From positions 1 through 53,292 of IMG/VR virus record IMGVR_UViG_3300042898_001370: a stretch of 53,292 nucleotides of DNA; one strand, 5' to 3'. The position numbers and the translations under genes are program-made. Origin of the DNA: a virus. The notes below the pieces were generated by a model. It was given only the letters and a program-made list of their open reading frames with translations, was not told the DNA's origin and searched no databases. Shown in pieces: positions 4,464-15,459 of this stretch (position 1 is the stretch's first letter; each line of letters begins with the position of its first letter).

Positions 4464-6254
4464 TTAGATTTGCATTCCGCCGCCACCTACGGGTCCAGCT
4501 GCGCCTCCGGGAACTGCTTCTCCGCCAGCACTGCCCACCGGCCCTGCTACGTCAAGTTCCGAATCACCCATTTCTTCACTAGATTCAATACTATCGGCAG
4601 TTTCCATATCTGATTCAAAGTCCCCAGTAGAAACACCAATGTTACGCAAATCGCTGCCTGCAGGATCGGAAGTAACTTCTTCTTTGTTTTCTTCTTCCCA
4701 CATACTTTCGTTACGTTTAATTTCTTCTTCAGTAAGACCTAAGAATCGTTCTAGTGCAAATCTCTTTGAAATGTATGGGAAAGCTTCCATGCTAGTGAAG
4801 GTACCTACTCTAGCATTATCTAGTTCACTTTGACGATATGCAGCAAAGTTCTGAGGAGGATTGAATACTAATTGGAATAGACTTGTATCAATGTTGAAGC
4901 CTCTCCAACGCAAGAACAATTTAAATTCTTCGTCAAACTTCATTGCCATGTAGTTCTGTAAACGTTCACAGTATTGATTGAATCTAAATTCTTGAATCAT
5001 CGCAGTACCGACACGACCATCACTCAATGGGGTAGTGTTGTCATCCGGGCCAGTTGGTAAGTAAGATGACGGGACACGAAGACCACGAGCAAGACGATTG
5101 TTGAAGTATTTCAAGTCATCGATTTCGCCTAGATTCTGTCCACCTGGAAGAACTTCAACTGATGAACCGCGACCTTCTGCTGTGACAGGGAAGAAGTAAT
5201 CTTCGTTCATTGACAGTGGGTTGTATGTAGCGTCAACGATTGATTGTCCGCCGTATACTGAAGGGATTCTGCGCTGGTGAATTTCATTCTTAACACGCTC
5301 AACGAATGCCATAGCTAAGTGACTTGGCATATTACCAACGTCAATCTTGAACATTCTACGTTCAGGAGCACGTTGTACACGATAGATGAGAACAGCGTCT
5401 TCTAATAGTTCTTTCTGCTTGTAGACCTTAAAGATGTTCTCAAGGATTGACTGTCCAAACGGCCAGAATCTGTCAAGCCCTTCAGTCAATGATACGTGAA
5501 CAACATGTTTTGAATCTACCGCAGACTCACTCTGTCCTAATGTGAAACGTGATCCTGTAGTGTTATATGGCATTGCCGGAGTAGTATAGCCGCCGCTTTG
5601 TCCGCCGCCGCCTGAACCGCCTAAGCCAGTTGCAGGGTTAGCTGCAAAATCAGTGTTGGTCTTTTGTGCAACACTAAGATTCTGTAAGTTAATATTGATA
5701 TCTTTGATGACATACTGTTCCGGCTTCTTGCCTTCACTTTCGTTAACGATTACTTTAATAACCTTAACCATGTCAATCCAGTAAAGCTTGAAGTTTTCTG
5801 GATCACGAACGAATGCCTGATCTCCGTACTTGATTACGTTGCGGAAAATCTTAAACATACGAACATCAAATTCGTTTAGCTTACACCATTGTTGAAGTTG
5901 TTTAGTAAGCAATTCTACTTCATGTGGAGTAGGGTCTTCTTTAAATTCAAAACTGAATGGTGTTTTATTATGTTCGTTTCTCTGAGTACTAAACTCAGCA
6001 ATAATATCCAAACAAGCGTTAATTTCAGCATCAACATCCATCATTTCATATTGGTTGTAACGCTCAATTCTATTAGGATGTCCAGTATAGACTTCTGGTA
6101 GCCTACTCATATAATTCTTGTAGCCGAACTCAGTATTACTATAGCCGCCTGACGGGACGCCACCGCTGCTATTCCAAGCACCTGCGTTACTGTTCATTCC
6201 TGAGATAGGACTTGATACACCGGACTTGTTTAAGAATTTCTTTTTATATGACAT
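4464..6254 (-). CDS. 20: Portal vertex protein (gp20-like)
   Basis: Dodecameric portal through which DNA is packaged and ejected, and on which the head is initiated. The 596-aa product (T4 gp20 is 524 aa) contains the family's recognisable central region: INACLDIIAEFSTQRN near residue 78, the stretch around HVVHVSLTEGLDRFWPFGQS, EDAVLIYRVQRAPERRMFKIDVGN, and the C-terminal part around LARGLRVPSSYLPTG and FRFNQYCERLQNYMAMKFDEEFK. The N-terminal 40 residues and the C-terminal ~90 (acidic, then Gly/Ala/Pro-rich) look disordered. It heads the head operon and is preceded by a CATAAATA late box and the tape-measure gene. Confidence 0.95.
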   Translation of the reverse strand: MSYKKKFLNKSGVSSPISGMNSNAGAWNSSGGVPSGGYSNTEFGYKNYMSRLPEVYTGHPNRIERYNQYEMMDVDAEINACLDIIAEFSTQRNEHNKTPFSFEFKEDPTPHEVELLTKQLQQWCKLNEFDVRMFKIFRNVIKYGDQAFVRDPENFKLYWIDMVKVIKVIVNESEGKKPEQYVIKDININLQNLSVAQKTNTDFAANPATGLGGSGGGGQSGGYTTPAMPYNTTGSRFTLGQSESAVDSKHVVHVSLTEGLDRFWPFGQSILENIFKVYKQKELLEDAVLIYRVQRAPERRMFKIDVGNMPSHLAMAFVERVKNEIHQRRIPSVYGGQSIVDATYNPLSMNEDYFFPVTAEGRGSSVEVLPGGQNLGEIDDLKYFNNRLARGLRVPSSYLPTGPDDNTTPLSDGRVGTAMIQEFRFNQYCERLQNYMAMKFDEEFKLFLRWRGFNIDTSLFQLVFNPPQNFAAYRQSELDNARVGTFTSMEAFPYISKRFALERFLGLTEEEIKRNESMWEEENKEEVTSDPAGSDLRNIGVSTGDFESDMETADSIESSEEMGDSELDVAGPVGSAGGEAVPGGAAGPVGGGGMQI

Positions 6255-6286: not shown

Positions 6287-9200
6287 TTAAACCATACTGT
6301 TCTTTAATATCTTTTCTCTAGTATCGTTACCATCAGAGATAGCACTAACCATATCGCCTAGTTTACTGAGCATACCCTCTACTAATTCAGCATTCATATT
6401 CACTACTCTTTCGAGAATTTCTTTTTCCATAGTTGGCGCAGTAGAAGATATTGCGTTGGATATTTCTGGTGTCTCTGCCGGAGTTTTAGCTAATTTCGCC
6501 AATACCGAATCTTGTGTTAGTGGAGTTATCATTTCAGAGCCGTGCATTTCAACTGGATATCCAGAATCCGGACCTTTGACTAAGCCGCCTTTTCTAGCTT
6601 GTAAAGAAGATTTTTTAGGAGACTCAATGTGCATATGACTGTAATGCCCTGGTGCCTTCCATATAACTTTAAATCCATCTGATCTGGCAGAATCTGCAAT
6701 TTGATCAAACTTAGCTCTTGCCTTAGGATCTTTTGATTCATTTACGCCTCTGCCGATGTTAATGTCAATTGCTCTTCCCTCATAATGGCCTCTACCTTTA
6801 TGCACCGGTGCTACTCCACCGAATGCAGGATGTTCAGCCACTCTAATTCCCTGATCTTGTAATCGTTGTCCTAGGGCAACAATATCTTTGCTTCCGCCGC
6901 CTTGGCCCGCATTTTTTCCTTCTTTTAATACCTCAACTTTTCCTGCTTTAAACCCTTCAATTTTTTCCATGGCATTTAGCATAGCAGTTCTTTGTTCAGG
7001 AGTCAAATCACGCAGCGGAGTATTAGAGTTTACCCCTAATGCTTTTACAATAGTGTTTATGTAGCCTCTTGTATCATTTTCATTAGGCGGAGCATATTTA
7101 CTGATTGCTCCGGCAATAGTTTTGTTTTTATATTTGCTAGTATTAAACAGTAGTTCCTCTTTTGCTTTGCGACCCTGTTCATACGAGGAGAATACTGCAA
7201 AACCTCCGGATTGCCCTACTGCTCCCTGACTTCTTGCAAAATCACCAGCCCTAATATTTCCGGGGTTATTATTTCGCCAAGCTAGTGTCCCTGTTCGTTT
7301 TTCTTCTCTGCCATCTTCATATTGAAGGTTAGTATATCCCGCGCCGCCTCCTGTTACCTTTGTCGCTGATCCACTTGTGCTGGTTGAGTCGCTGTCGGCA
7401 TAATTAGAGCTACCAGGAGAGCTATCAGGAGAGCTACTAGGAGAGCTACTAGGAGAGCTACCGTCAGTGCTTGCGTCCTCGTCTTCTTCATCAACACCTG
7501 CTATTTTATTTAGGATCTTTGAAGCATCAGTTAAACTTCTTCTAAACTGCATCATAGATTCTTCAGTGAATCTATGTCGTTTCATTTCGGCTTCTCTAAG
7601 ACTATCTGTGCTTAGTGCAGCATCTGCCAATGAAGTCTTGAGTCTTTCAATATAATCAACTACATCAAGCTCATTATCATCTTCCATGGGAGTGCCTAAT
7701 AACCCAGAAGATTTTCCTTTAACTTTGCTATTAATAGATCCCATTGCATTAATTGATTTATTTTGGTCTGCAAACATTTTTACAGCTTTTGCGAAAGTGC
7801 CGGTGATAGTCGCAAATGCTTGCACTGTTTTAGCAAATGCCGTTACAGTTTTAGCAAATGCTATTATAAGTTTACCGAACGATTCTATATTTTTTCCGAA
7901 TGACGTAGCAACGGAAGAGGACATCCCTTTATTCGGACTGCCTAATTTATTTACAATTTCACCAAACTTCTCTACATGCTTACCGAATGCATCAGCAAAC
8001 TTACCGTCGGCAGTTGCAGCGGATGCTTTTGCTGCATCTTTAGATTCGGGTTTAACAGCACTTAATTTTTTATCCAAATATTCGGTTTCAGATTTTACTC
8101 TATCTGCTTGAGCTTGGTTAGCTAAATTATCCATGAACATAAATCTACCGATATGTTCTATTCCGCGAGCTAACGATGATTGAGTTTTTTCCCAAGTTGA
8201 CGCTCTTTCCCAATTTTTGTCATCTTGGCTTTGGATAGTTTTAGAGTCTAGATCTTTACCTACACCAGCGGCACCAAATCCTGCATCAATTACGTATGCG
8301 CCGCCTGCAACAATCGCAGCACCTTTTGCTGCTTTTAATAGTTGTGCTCCTTTACCAGCAGCGGCTGCTCCGCCTGCACCGGCTGCTCCTGCACCTGCTG
8401 CTCCTGCGCCTGCTGCTCCTGCGCCTGCTGCTCCTGCACCGGCTGCTCTTGCGCCTGCTGCTCCTGCGCCTGCTGCTCCTGCGCCTGCTGCTCCTGCACC
8501 GGCTGCTCTTGCGCCGCCTGCTGCTGCTCCTCCTGCTAATCTAGCAAGTCCGCCCCTAGCTGCAATTGCAAGTGCAGCTAACCCAGCTGCGCCTGCTAGT
8601 GCGATTAATGCGGTGGAAGCAATCCCTAAATTACCTGCAAAACTATCAAATGCTGTTCTTAGAGCAATTTCAGTTTCAGTTAATATATTTCTAGCTTGCT
8701 GACGAGAATCTTCTGCTGCTTTACCCTTTCCGGCTGCATTATCATCTATTCTTTTTTGTATATCGGCTGCTGCCTTTTCTTGATCTAAGCCGAACAGTCT
8801 GTTGCGTTCGGTTATACCACCGGTACCGCCGACTAAGTTTGCAGCATCAGGGCTTATCGCAGCGGCTATTTTAAGTTGATCCTGAGCCTTAGCAGAACTA
8901 TCGGTTATAGCTTGAGTGTATTTTGCTGCGTCCTTCGCAGAGTTTATATTTCCGGCCCTAGTTTCTCTAGCTAATTCTTGAATGGTACCTAGGGTTCCAC
9001 TAACTGCCATAGTGCCTAAACCTTCGGTAATAGGAGCTCCGGCCAGCGCCTGTCCATAACCCCTGCCTGCCTCTTCCCCTTGAAGTGCAGTTATTTGAGC
9101 CTTAGTAGCCATTGCTAATTCAACTTGTGCAGCAAGTTTCTGTTTTTCTTCTTCAGTTGATGCCGACGCTATTTTTTTATTCATGTCGGCTACATATAGC

Positions 9201-10153
9201 TGAAACTGGGTGTCGGCTGCCGCCGCTGCCATACGCTTTGTTTGATCCTCAACACTAAGTCCAGTCATGTCACTTAATGCTTGTAAATTTTTAACATAAG
9301 CTAGAGATGTTTTTTGTAGTGTCTTCATTTCGCCATTAAATGAACGTAAAGATAAGCCAGCGCCGCCCATTAACTCAACGTAACCAGCTTGTGCTTCTAC
9401 TAATTCAGCTTGGCTATATCCCAATCTCTGAAATTCTTGGCGAACCTCAGAGCCGACATTGGCCATTTCCATAAATCTGTTGGTAGAATCTACTGCACCA
9501 TTACCAAGTTGCTTAAATGTTGACCCTAATTTTTGCATAGGTGCCATCAGTTTGTCTAAATCTTTAGCAGCAAACCCAATCTTATTTGCCATACTAAGAA
9601 TTTCATCGGTATTGAATGCATTAGCTGCACCCATTTTAGATATTTGATCATTGAATTTTAGAAGCGAATCTGCTTGTGCAAGTTGGTATTGCATCAACAT
9701 CGTTGCTGCCTTAACAACCCCGCCTATAACAGTGCCTAATATTCCAAAGTTCTTTCCTAAATCTAACGCAGCATCACCGGCTGAACCAATCATACCGTTA
9801 TATTTTGAAAACGAATGTGTACTGTCCATTATCACTGAACCTAGTGATAAGAATCCATTGGCAACAGTTCCCATTGCTTTGTTAATTCTATCAGTAGCTT
9901 CTTGGACTGCTTCTTGTCTTTCTTTTTCTGCCCGAGCATAAGCTTCTTCTTTTTTAGTAAGCTCTTCGGTAGATTCAGTGAGTTCTTTAGTGGCTTTAGT
10001 TGCTTTAGCTGAAGCTGTAGTTGATTTATCTGAAGCAGCAGTCAGGTCTTTCATGGATTTCATTTGAGCAGCCATCATGGCATTTTGCTCACTTAAGATT
10101 TCATACATTTCCCTTAATTGTTCATTAAGGCGTTCTACAATTTCCGGATCCAT
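6287..10153 (-). CDS. Tape-measure-like tail protein with muramidase-like and M15 peptidase-like domains
   Basis: A 1288-aa tail protein. Residues 1-100 are charged coiled coil. About 100-520 are helical, tape-measure-like, with hydrophobic segments. Residues ~538-601 are a low-complexity Ala/Gly repeat, and ~720-830 contain heptad FAKTVTAF-type repeats. About residues 955-1068 start with WRNNNPGNIRAG, the NPGN signature of phage muramidase-like domains. Residues ~1088-1185 hold HYEGRAIDIN and HMHIE, the HxxxxxxD...HxH zinc arrangement of M15/DacB-type peptidases. The end, GGLVKGPDSGYPVEMHGSEMI, is typical of tape-measure C-termini. Likely roles are setting tail length and locally cutting peptidoglycan during DNA entry. 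It is divergent from, and next to, the frameshifting chaperone-like gene. T4's tape measure gp29 is 590 aa and has no such domains. Confidence 0.82.
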   Translation of the reverse strand: MDPEIVERLNEQLREMYEILSEQNAMMAAQMKSMKDLTAASDKSTTASAKATKATKELTESTEELTKKEEAYARAEKERQEAVQEATDRINKAMGTVANGFLSLGSVIMDSTHSFSKYNGMIGSAGDAALDLGKNFGILGTVIGGVVKAATMLMQYQLAQADSLLKFNDQISKMGAANAFNTDEILSMANKIGFAAKDLDKLMAPMQKLGSTFKQLGNGAVDSTNRFMEMANVGSEVRQEFQRLGYSQAELVEAQAGYVELMGGAGLSLRSFNGEMKTLQKTSLAYVKNLQALSDMTGLSVEDQTKRMAAAAADTQFQLYVADMNKKIASASTEEEKQKLAAQVELAMATKAQITALQGEEAGRGYGQALAGAPITEGLGTMAVSGTLGTIQELARETRAGNINSAKDAAKYTQAITDSSAKAQDQLKIAAAISPDAANLVGGTGGITERNRLFGLDQEKAAADIQKRIDDNAAGKGKAAEDSRQQARNILTETEIALRTAFDSFAGNLGIASTALIALAGAAGLAALAIAARGGLARLAGGAAAGGARAAGAGAAGAGAAGAGAAGARAAGAGAAGAGAAGAGAAGAGAAGAGGAAAAGKGAQLLKAAKGAAIVAGGAYVIDAGFGAAGVGKDLDSKTIQSQDDKNWERASTWEKTQSSLARGIEHIGRFMFMDNLANQAQADRVKSETEYLDKKLSAVKPESKDAAKASAATADGKFADAFGKHVEKFGEIVNKLGSPNKGMSSSVATSFGKNIESFGKLIIAFAKTVTAFAKTVQAFATITGTFAKAVKMFADQNKSINAMGSINSKVKGKSSGLLGTPMEDDNELDVVDYIERLKTSLADAALSTDSLREAEMKRHRFTEESMMQFRRSLTDASKILNKIAGVDEEDEDASTDGSSPSSSPSSSPDSSPGSSNYADSDSTSTSGSATKVTGGGAGYTNLQYEDGREEKRTGTLAWRNNNPGNIRAGDFARSQGAVGQSGGFAVFSSYEQGRKAKEELLFNTSKYKNKTIAGAISKYAPPNENDTRGYINTIVKALGVNSNTPLRDLTPEQRTAMLNAMEKIEGFKAGKVEVLKEGKNAGQGGGSKDIVALGQRLQDQGIRVAEHPAFGGVAPVHKGRGHYEGRAIDINIGRGVNESKDPKARAKFDQIADSARSDGFKVIWKAPGHYSHMHIESPKKSSLQARKGGLVKGPDSGYPVEMHGSEMITPLTQDSVLAKLAKTPAETPEISNAISSTAPTMEKEILERVVNMNAELVEGMLSKLGDMVSAISDGNDTREKILKNSMV
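8370..8530. repeat. GC-rich minisatellite, 15-bp unit in a 60-bp higher-order repeat
   Basis: Degenerate 15-bp units reading gctcctgcgcctgct on the plus strand. Bases 8401-8460 and 8461-8520 are a tandem 60-bp duplication differing at a single position. In the coding (minus) strand it gives an Ala-Gly-Ala pentapeptide repeat, a flexible linker within the tape-measure protein. The near-identity suggests recent expansion by slippage. Confidence 0.9.
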
Positions 10154-10247: not shown

Positions 10248-11072
10248 ATGGACAATAATCCACTAAGACAATATTTCAGAAGACCAGCAGTCTACATTAG
10301 TTTGCCGTCGAAGGGCGAAGGTTATTCTAATGAGGACTTAGAAATGCCAGAAACCAATGAGCTTCCAGTATACCCAATGACTGCAATTGATGAGATTACA
10401 GCAAGAACTCCAGACGCATTGTTTAACGGAACATCAATCGTTGACTTAATTAAAAGCTGTGTGCCGAGTATCAAGAACCCATGGGCTATCAAAAGCGTAG
10501 ACATGGATGCTATCTTGATTGGTATTAGGGCTGCTAGCGGCGGAGAAATGCTAGAGATTGATACTACTTGCCCTAGTTGCGAAGTTACTGCAACCTATAG
10601 CATCAATCTTATCGCAGCATTAAGTTCGTTGAAGCCAGGAAATTACAAGGCACCGCTTGAAGTCGGTAACTTAAAAATCAAATTTAGACCACTAGTATAT
10701 AGTGAAATGAATCAAGCTTCGCTGGGTCAGTTTGAGGTTCAAAAGTTCTTCGATGCACTTTACACGATTGAAACCGACGAAGAAAGAAATGCTGCTAGCC
10801 GAGAAGCACTAGAAAAAATCACGTTCTTGACAATGGACATTCTAAGCAAAACCATTGAATACATTGAGACTCCTAATGGCAACGTAGACGATAAAGCATT
10901 TATTCTAGATTTCATGAAAAATTGTGATAATACAGTTTACAACTCTATTCGAGACCACAGTGCTGAACTTAAAGAAGGCACTGAACTCAAGCCTGCAACG
11001 ATTAATTGCGCTAGCTGTAGCCATGAATACGACCAGGCATACAGCATTAACCCAACGGATTTTTTCGGCTAA
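10248..11072 (+). CDS. 26: Baseplate hub / tail assembly chaperone (gp26-like), zero-frame product
   Basis: A 274-aa protein of the T4 base-plate gp26 family. Family-typical text includes NPLRQYF, LPVYPMTAIDEITARTPDAL (residues 39-58), SIVDLIKSCVPSIKNPW and a cysteine pair CPSC (C108, C111). A second pair CASC (C254, C257) near the C-terminus completes a likely four-Cys zinc site. T4 gp26 is needed for hub assembly. The last codons, GAT TTT TTC GGC TAA, contain a perfect slippery heptamer 4 codons from the stop, so part of the ribosomes should shift to the -1 frame and make a 349-aa form. The start is ATG with AAGGAAAAG. Its place beside the tape-measure gene matches that of tail assembly chaperones in other tailed phages. 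Confidence 0.9.
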   Translation: MDNNPLRQYFRRPAVYISLPSKGEGYSNEDLEMPETNELPVYPMTAIDEITARTPDALFNGTSIVDLIKSCVPSIKNPWAIKSVDMDAILIGIRAASGGEMLEIDTTCPSCEVTATYSINLIAALSSLKPGNYKAPLEVGNLKIKFRPLVYSEMNQASLGQFEVQKFFDALYTIETDEERNAASREALEKITFLTMDILSKTIEYIETPNGNVDDKAFILDFMKNCDNTVYNSIRDHSAELKEGTELKPATINCASCSHEYDQAYSINPTDFFG

Positions 11073-11109
11073 AGCTTCTTATATCAAAACCCGAAGATAT
11101 TAAGAAGCT
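11060..11109 (+). promoter_or_regulatory. Programmed -1 ribosomal frameshift signal
   Basis: The slippery heptamer T TTT TTC (11060-11066) is in the correct X XXY YYZ phase. A six-base spacer (GGCTAA, which includes the zero-frame stop) leads to a hairpin. Bases 11073-11080 pair with 11102-11109 (8 bp), and 11081-11085 pair with 11096-11100 (5 bp), with a single bulged T at 11101 and a 10-base loop. Slippery site, spacer and stem all meet the textbook requirements for -1 frameshifting. Confidence 0.88.
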
Positions 11110-11296
11110 ATTAGACCAATACGAAAAAGACGCAGCAGAAATTAAGGCCTCAGCCCTATCAATGTCTTGGCATATGAGGGGCGGGGCCAGCTACGTGGAT
11201 ATACTAAACATGTCTACTGCCGAACGCAAAGAGATAGCCTCTATCATAGAAAGCAATCTTGACATAACTAAGAAAACTCAGTTACCTTACTTCTGA
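11066..11296 (+). CDS. Minus-one frame C-terminal extension of the gp26-like protein
   Basis: After a -1 slip at the heptamer, reading continues at 11066 for 76 codons with no stop until TGA at 11294-11296. The extension begins RLKLLISKPEDIKKLLDQYE and ends KKTQLPYF, with a conserved-looking core MSWHMRGGASYVDILNMS. It has no credible ribosome-binding site of its own: the first in-frame ATG, at codon 34, has nothing Shine-Dalgarno-like before it. It is therefore most likely made only as a fusion (273 + 76 = 349 aa). This parallels lambda gpG/gpGT and P2 E/E', where the extended form binds the tape measure. That functional reading is inference. I do not equate the extension with T4 gp51, which is a longer separate protein. 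Confidence 0.85.
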   Translation, partial: RLKLLISKPEDIKKLLDQYEKDAAEIKASALSMSWHMRGGASYVDILNMSTAERKEIASIIESNLDITKKTQLPYF

Positions 11297-11374: not shown

Positions 11375-11760
11375 TTAGAAGGAAGATACATTGCCGGTTT
11401 AGAAGCCATGGTAGTGCCCCTGAAAGGCACTACCTAGACTTGGACATTGCCATGGCCTGTCATCCTTTGTTGTCTGTTCCCCGATTAACTAGCTCGTATC
11501 GCTGTTAATCGCTACCGGTTGCCCTGTAAAGTTTAATGGGACTGTAGTGAGACTTCCGTCTCTGCAACGCATGTTCTGTGACTTCAAGACAAAGTATATC
11601 ACAGACTCATTCAGGGTTCGCCTACCTAACGAGAGCCCTGTCGGTATTCCCTGACCTCACGATCAGGCATACTCCAGAATCCAGCCGCATTCATTCGTGG
11701 TGCAACCTCAAGGAGGATTGTGACACATGCACAATCATAACGATGTAAGAGGGTTCTGTG
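11375..11760 (-). ncRNA. Candidate large structured non-coding RNA, family unknown
   Basis: This ~390-base stretch has no ORF of note but is full of hairpins: 11405-11456 (with a perfect 9-bp stem 11410-11418/11426-11434), 11482-11511 (8 bp plus an inner 3 bp), 11549-11562, 11576-11604, 11612-11640, 11650-11667 and 11716-11736. Strand is indicated by detail. On the minus strand 11549-11562 is GAGAC-GGAA-GUCUC and 11650-11667 is CCUGAUC-GUGA-GGUCAGG, both GNRA tetraloops. Its U-G pairs, and those of 11618-11632, would be C-A mismatches on the plus strand. It starts right after the resolvase stop codon and ends before the convergent terminator, so it would be a 3' part of that transcript or a processed RNA. 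I tested it by eye against tmRNA, RNase P and group I intron core sequences and found no match. Confidence 0.6.
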
Positions 11761-14446: not shown

Positions 14447-15459
14447 AGGTTTCTGTAAATCTCTAACAATACTTTAGGGTCAAAGAACTCGCTTTCAATA
14501 GCGGCAAGTTGATCGATAATAATCTGGTCAACACTTTCAAAGCTTACTTCGCCGGGGGCTAAGTCTTGACTGTGTTGGTCTAGCTTCATTGGGATAAGTG
14601 ACATTTCTCGTATATTATGTTTTGGAATCAATGTCTCACGAATAAAGTTAGCTTCTTCATATGAGATATCAATATCAAGATGCACTCTAACACTACTCTT
14701 GGGAAGAAGCAAGCCTTCTGGGTTATCTAGTATGTCACTAAGCTTGTAGACACGATATAGTGGCTGTCCGGGCCATGCTTGAAACTCAGGCTCTTCGCCC
14801 CATTCAAGAATCATCATGCCTCGCTGATCGTCGCCTGCATCTGCATAGTTGTGCGGAAACGCATTACCGATATACCAAATATTGTTACGAGCTTGTCGTT
14901 TGTGAAAGTGGCCGCTGAATACTTTTTCAAAGCCGGCTAAGTCGCTATCACTCACATCACCGTGATCGGGCATCTGAACCATAGCATTCATATAGAATGC
15001 AGGAAGCTCAAAGTGACCAAACATATATTTGCCTGACAGCTTAGCTAACTTCTTATGGTCTTCTCCTACTAACCAAGGAGCAATAACTACATCATCTTGA
15101 ATGAACCAGTCATTCACAATTGTTACATTGGGTAGATGCTTTGCCCACTCCACGCTATGAACATCACGCTTGTCTCTATAGTAGAGATCGTGATTGCCTG
15201 GAATGAAAAACACACGTTCAAAATTGTTGTTAAGTTTTTCTAAAGCACGAAGACCAAACTGCATTGTTTGAATATTGATACTTGCTCTGTGGTGATTGTA
15301 GTCACCCAAGAAAAAACAAGTTTCGCAGTTTTCTTCTTTAGCCTTCTGAATGAACCAGTCAACAAAGTCCGAACAGTCTTGATTGTGCTGTACACTATTA
15401 GACTTAAGCCCAAAGTGAATGTCAGTGAAGACCGCAGCTTTCTTGAATAAATTAGCCAT
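14443..15459 (-). CDS. 47: Recombination endonuclease subunit, SbcD/Mre11-like nuclease (gp47)
   Basis: The metallophosphoesterase partner of gp46. The 338-aa length equals that of T4 gp47 (339 aa). All calcineurin-type metal motifs are present in order: FTDIHFG (Asp13, His15), FLGDYNHHR (Asp53), FIPGNHD (Asn89, His90, Asp91), MFGHFELP and SGHFHKRQ. The gene starts at ATG with GGAG 14 bases upstream and overlaps gp46 by four bases. A TATAAGTA box lies immediately upstream. Confidence 0.96.
   Translation of the reverse strand: MANLFKKAAVFTDIHFGLKSNSVQHNQDCSDFVDWFIQKAKEENCETCFFLGDYNHHRASINIQTMQFGLRALEKLNNNFERVFFIPGNHDLYYRDKRDVHSVEWAKHLPNVTIVNDWFIQDDVVIAPWLVGEDHKKLAKLSGKYMFGHFELPAFYMNAMVQMPDHGDVSDSDLAGFEKVFSGHFHKRQARNNIWYIGNAFPHNYADAGDDQRGMMILEWGEEPEFQAWPGQPLYRVYKLSDILDNPEGLLLPKSSVRVHLDIDISYEEANFIRETLIPKHNIREMSLIPMKLDQHSQDLAPGEVSFESVDQIIIDQLAAIESEFFDPKVLLEIYRNL

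Follow-up and report, generated by a model that had tools for sequence, protein, structure and literature searches.

A conserved -1 frameshift signal at the end of a gp26-like phage gene suggests a frameshifted T4-type tail-assembly chaperone

Results and Discussion

The gp26-like gene and the signal at its 3' end

The window analyzed here is the whole 53,292-nt stretch of the IMG/VR record IMGVR_UViG_3300042898_001370, which may be a fragment. On its plus strand, an ORF of the gp26-like family extends from 10248 to 11072 and encodes a protein of 274 aa, the short form (TAC-N). The product matched PF12322 (T4_baseplate) with an E-value of 7.9e-17 and a score of 62.1 bits, the curated cut-off being 24.5, and it also matched phrog_150. 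The AlphaFold model of the short form (pLDDT 88.8) matched T4-like hub assembly proteins in BFVD, and a fold search of the PDB with the same model returned no match at E <= 0.001.

The 3' end of the ORF reads GAT TTT TTC GGC TAA. The slippery heptamer T TTT TTC (11060-11066, plus strand) lies in the X XXY YYZ phase, begins within the fourth-last sense codon, and is separated by one sense codon from the 0-frame TAA at 11070. It is followed by the six-base spacer GGCTAA (11067-11072), which contains this stop, and by a predicted stimulatory stem-loop (11073-11109), both on the plus strand. The -1 frame is open on the same strand from 11066 to 11296, with 76 codons and a TGA at 11294-11296; this extension (TAC-C) was matched to the C-terminus of T4 gp51, as described below. 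The initial annotation, made from the letters alone, had described an in-phase heptamer four codons before the stop, a six-base spacer, and a 76-codon open -1 frame, and all three are present in the sequence. The earliest ATG, GTG, or TTG in the -1 frame is codon 33, which is located inside the conserved domain. The whole extension therefore has no start of its own, and a separate start for the 76-aa part, which the annotation had named as an observation that would speak against frameshifting, was ruled out in the window. The AlphaFold model of the extension was mostly helical (pLDDT 85.5) and gave no match in BFVD at E <= 0.001; a 'tape measure chaperone' of phage Moogle was rejected as a match to the extension, its E-value in BFVD (2.0) being at noise level.

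Conservation of the heptamer

The 3' ends of gp26-like genes were compared at 198 loci. These comprised the window with six named jumbo phages, 12 viral contigs, and 11 more named phages; the best 80 of the 597 contigs that matched in a profile search and two cyanophage loci; and the best 80 of 276 contigs retrieved via S-PM2 gp26, together with six other lineages. T4, the gp51 loci (L112-L121), and a Microcystis record were left out, the last having been dropped as a relative because it contained no PF12322 gene. The 198 loci are not independent since many are related, several contigs are identical to the window, and some were fetched twice (L008/L032, L019/L106, and L125/L177). The distinct long forms of the jumbo type numbered 91 of 110, leaving out L095, in which the extension is cut by the contig end.

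In 197 of the 198 loci, including jumbo phages, cyanophages, KVP40-like phages, and rhizobial phages, the gp26 3' end carried T TTT TTY in phase, and the -1 frame after it was open. The last codon of the heptamer was TTC in 194 of them and TTT in three (RAS14, XacN1, and phiN3). The sole exception was Serratia phage phiMAM1 (Ackermannviridae, L239), which carries G GTT TTC instead of T TTT TTY near the end of its gp26-like gene (around positions 4745-4929 of the locus). The -1 frame behind the phiMAM1 gene is open and resembles the others; G GTT TTC may be a variant slippery site, or a different mechanism may operate there. Loss of the heptamer in relatives that keep both frames, which had been put forward as evidence that would count against the frameshift, was accordingly seen in phiMAM1 only. 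A tblastn search with the extension retrieved 22 records at E <= 1, each with a match that was in the -1 register and abutted or overlapped the end of gp26.

Occurrence of the heptamer by chance was ruled out by this conservation together with the rarity of T TTT TTC as a spelling of Phe-Phe elsewhere. At the gp26 end, T TTT TTC was present in 80 of 80 contigs (the best 80 of 597 from the profile search). Other Phe-Phe dipeptides, counted in open frames of at least 100 codons with the slippery sites themselves excluded, were written T TTT TTC in 25 of 315 cases in the 93 loci of the window's clade (49 with either last base) and in 24 of 379 cases in 80 cyanophage-type loci (42 with either last base); in the window, the proportion was 1 of 51. 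Within long open frames of the window, T6C is in phase at just one other place, near 15316 in a gp47-like gene, where the -1 frame reaches a stop after two codons. An error in a single contig was also ruled out, because the same site occurs in named isolates.

Among 73 distinct extensions of the clade, the variation at -1-frame codon positions 1, 2, and 3 was 0.36, 0.22, and 0.55, respectively. The -1 frame was open in all 73 sequences, and both other frames contained stops in all 73, indicating, together with the codon-position pattern, that the extension is selected as protein.

The stem-loop downstream of the heptamer

The 54 nt after the heptamer in the window had a minimum free energy of -18.3 kcal/mol versus -4.6 +/- 2.1 for shuffled sequences (z -6.6). 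This agrees with the bulged hairpin of 13 bp (11073-11085 with 11096-11109) proposed in the initial annotation, of which only 7 bp, 11073-11079 with 11103-11109, proved to be conserved in evolution. In a gap-free alignment of 72 distinct clade sequences, 91.5% of the 504 cells of the 7-bp stem were paired versus 34-57% in slid controls, and 18 cells were doubly changed (GC to AU in nine, UA to CG in six, and CG to UA in three). An eleven-pair version of the stem was paired in 77.4% of cells versus 36-47% in slid controls. RNAalifold returned no consensus structure from the clade alignment, for which the explicit pair count was positive. The stem is conserved by covariation within the window's clade.

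The fold energy of the 54-nt stretch in the clade had a median z of -2.0, with 36 of 72 sequences below -2; in control stretches 60 and 120 nt further on, 22 of 71 and 11 of 71 were below this value, respectively. In cyanophage-type loci, the median z was -2.5, and 29 of 48 sequences versus 2 of 48 in the control were below -2. Only 3 of 17 named jumbo phages had a z below -2 at the stem position, and this count and the negative RNAalifold result indicate that the stem is not universal. The comparison of gp26 3' ends suggested in the annotation thus bore out the heptamer broadly and the hairpin in the window's clade, not as a general feature. Its reading of the site as a -1 programmed frameshift is supported by the conserved heptamer, the -1 frame, and, in the window's clade, the stem.

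Relation to T4 gp26 and gp51

T4 gp26 (207 aa) and gp51 (249 aa) both belong to PF12322, and gp51 carries C-terminal residues that are absent from gp26. A T6 run was looked for at the end of T4 gene 26 and was absent. In the cyanophages S-PM2 (151190-151363) and P-SSM4 (8340-8525), the genes annotated as 'gp51, baseplate hub assembly catalyst' lie behind T TTT TTC in the -1 frame of gp26.

In profile comparisons, for which all E-values are single-pair values, the cyanophage extension matched the C-termini of gp51 (96.6%, E 5e-10), and the long forms of cyanophages plus other lineages aligned end to end with gp51 (99.2%, E 2e-19). The jumbo long forms matched the cyanophage-plus-other long forms with the alignment running through the junction (99.3%, E 4e-20). 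The jumbo extension by itself matched the cyanophage-plus-other extensions (71.9%, E 3e-5) and, weakly, the gp51 C-termini (21%, E 0.001). The extension in the window was therefore matched to the T4 gp51 C-terminus by way of the cyanophage forms, which bridge the two. No T4 or cyanophage match was present among the matches listed (60 of 62 records) in a tblastn search with the window gp26, so that the link to T4 and the cyanophages comes from the profiles.

PF12322 genes were counted in 23 records: 18 contained one, T4 and two relatives contained two, and two contained none by profile. SCTP-2, in which the profile found no PF12322 gene, was nevertheless found by tblastn. One such gene was present in the window record, a 53-kb and possibly fragmentary one. 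These gene counts and the gp51-type C-terminus suggest that one frameshifting gene is the counterpart of the T4 pair. Small ORFs behind gp26 are annotated as hypothetical proteins or separate genes at many loci (L001-L005, L021, L024-L026, and L028-L031); these ORFs and the separately annotated gp51 genes behind gp26 seem to represent fragments of the -1 extension.

The neighboring tape measure candidate

A gene of 1288 aa at 6287-10153 on the minus strand is a tape measure candidate. Its product is large and divergent, with a long alanine/glycine-rich repeat stretch in the middle; it matched no tape-measure family, the only match being an 'endolysin' PHROG stretch (residues 955-1069). The RaK2 gene at the corresponding place is annotated as similar to tape measure protein. 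Tape-measure families were among the matches of the S-PM2 gene after gp51 and of the ValKK3 gene after the extension, and the P-SSM4 gene at that position matched endolysin and unknown families. From position and size, we infer that the gene at 6287-10153 encodes the tape measure protein.

Proposed mechanism and alternatives

The gene at 10248 very probably codes for a T4 gp26/gp51-type tail-assembly chaperone, from which a -1 frameshift would give a short and a long form. Most ribosomes would end at the TAA at 11070 and release the 274-aa short form, and the stem-loop six bases downstream of the heptamer would pause a fraction of them, such that both Phe-tRNAs could slip one base back on T TTT TTC. 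The slipped ribosomes, which we infer to be the minority, would then read 76 codons in the -1 frame to produce a long form of 349 aa, with an extension that would be the counterpart of the extra C-terminus of T4 gp51. Both forms together would coat and deliver the tape measure protein in tail assembly, like lambda gpG/gpGT.

The lambda pair also consists of short and long forms with a common N-terminus, which is predicted here from gene structure and conservation. No link in sequence (Pfam, PHROG) or solved fold (PDB at E <= 0.001) was found between the two systems. The slippery heptamer of lambda differs from T TTT TTC. The suggestion in the initial annotation that the gp26 family is a T4-type counterpart of gpG/gpGT is supported by the comparisons, although the annotation was unaware that in T4 there are two such genes, 26 and 51. 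By analogy with the lambda model (PMC5009743), in which loading of the tape measure protein is the task of a short and a long chaperone form, and from the position of the genes, the two forms described here probably have the same task.

The extension might instead be a separate small protein with a start of its own, used through coupling at the gp26 stop or re-initiation there, and many records annotate it as a separate gene. S-PM2 and P-SSM4 indeed have an ATG a few codons into the extension, and among 72 distinct clade sequences, 19 contain a possible start in its first 15 codons; the other 53 have none there, and in the window the first start is within the conserved domain. Since a separate start would also leave the conserved heptamer and the conserved FFR..LL stretch upstream of any start unexplained, this explanation is highly unlikely. 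Transcriptional slippage is a known alternative to ribosomal frameshifting, and with a T run present at every positive locus, RNA polymerase could slip on the six Ts to yield a minority of frame-shifted mRNAs. Six Ts, followed by C in 194 of 197 loci, are nevertheless short for polymerase slippage, which would be expected to favor a longer run, whereas the phase, the six-base spacer, and the covarying stem suit ribosomal slippage, making a polymerase origin extremely improbable.

The remaining alternative accepts both proteins and takes them not for chaperones but for structural components of the baseplate hub. The family labels of the gp26-like protein refer to the baseplate hub, the CBB record has the annotation 'structural protein', and genetic support for gp26 in the hub is cited in a 2010 review (PMC3004832). 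The same review, however, counts both gp26 and gp51 among the hub assembly chaperones, with gp51 absent from the particle (PMC3004832), and the short/long frameshift pair adjoins a tape-measure-type gene in S-PM2 and ValKK3. A purely structural role is therefore unlikely, and a frameshifted chaperone is the preferred reading.

Known systems and evolutionary history

In the work of Vladimirov, Gautam, and Davidson (2022, Virology 566:9-15), several groups of T4-like phages were reportedly found to share a conserved frameshift, and T4 to rely on genes 26 and 51. A frameshifted chaperone of the T4 type is thus not new in kind, since that work reportedly identified such chaperones in T4-like phages. 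A later paper refers to it for the poly-T slippery sequences that the TAC-N genes of these phages carry (PMC12846349). The chaperone of the window resembles these in family, in a short form equivalent to gp26 and a long form equivalent to gp51, and in the poly-T signal; it differs from T4 itself, where the genes are separate and gene 26 lacks a T6 run at its end, in being one gene with a predicted frameshift. Some T4-like phages are described as having two chaperone genes, a short one and a fused long one, in place of frameshifting (PMC10885494). The chaperones of Vandenendeviridae and Andersonviridae, as described in one paper (PMC12846349), similarly have a -1 shift with a poly-T motif (GTTTTT) at the TAC-N 3' end, an open -1 frame, and an adjoining tape measure gene, but they belong to other phage families and use another motif. 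The breadth in jumbo phages, the covarying stem, and the tree are added by the present analysis.

In a FastTree tree of the short domain, T4 gp26 and gp51 grouped together (0.76), and this pair was placed beside the frameshifting KVP40-like phages, S13, and avDM12 (0.91); the surrounding lineages also frameshift. The tree has a midpoint root, long branches, and modest support, and T4 gp26 is its sole gp26 from two-gene phages. These groupings favor, at modest support, the frameshift as the ancestral state and the duplication as the derived one. We accordingly lean toward a history in which the frameshift is ancestral in the T4 superfamily including the jumbo phages, the covarying stem is a second selected part of the signal in the window's clade, and genes 26 and 51 of T4 are a derived Straboviridae duplication that replaced the frameshift, beside the still-shifting KVP40-like phages, S13, and Chrysonvirus.

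The frameshifted chaperone, if borne out, would correct the annotation of many phages, namely of cyanophage 'gp51' and of the jumbo-phage 'hypothetical protein' behind gp26, both of which would be C-terminal parts of this chaperone rather than genes in their own right. It would also give a concrete and testable role to T4 gp51, described in the 2010 review as essential and of unknown function (PMC3004832). The superfamily would then represent a natural experiment, in which most lineages kept the frameshift and a gene duplication apparently took its place in the T4 branch.

A structured RNA candidate downstream of the extension

A separate observation concerns the non-coding stretch that has the chaperone extension on one side and a PDDEXK/RusA-like gene on the other and contains a structured RNA candidate of approximately 350 nt on the minus strand (about 11386-11735, core 11513-11647). 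Rfam searches gave only chance-level matches far below the gathering scores for the window, and no match at E <= 0.5 for eight loci, seven of which contain the candidate. As DNA, it was present in 82 of the 110 loci searched, all from the window's clade, and in none of the loci of 17 named phages. A covariance model of the core detected one copy in the window and one each in three longer contigs, and 17 other phage records gave only matches with E-values of 0.5-1, in three of them. In 31 further loci, some of which may be on contigs that end too early, the model found the RNA in three, indicating that it is not universal among them.

The consensus comprised 54 predicted pairs, 33 of which showed compensatory changes, and 94.7% of the cells were paired. 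Doubly changed cells numbered 404, a count that fell to 112 in shuffles and to 41-52 in slid controls. AC/CA cells numbered 82, more than the GU/UG cells, of which there were 21 when one fixed pair was set aside; this points to the minus strand, and the candidate also folded better on this strand (z -2.05 versus -1.13). It possibly represents an undescribed class of RNA.
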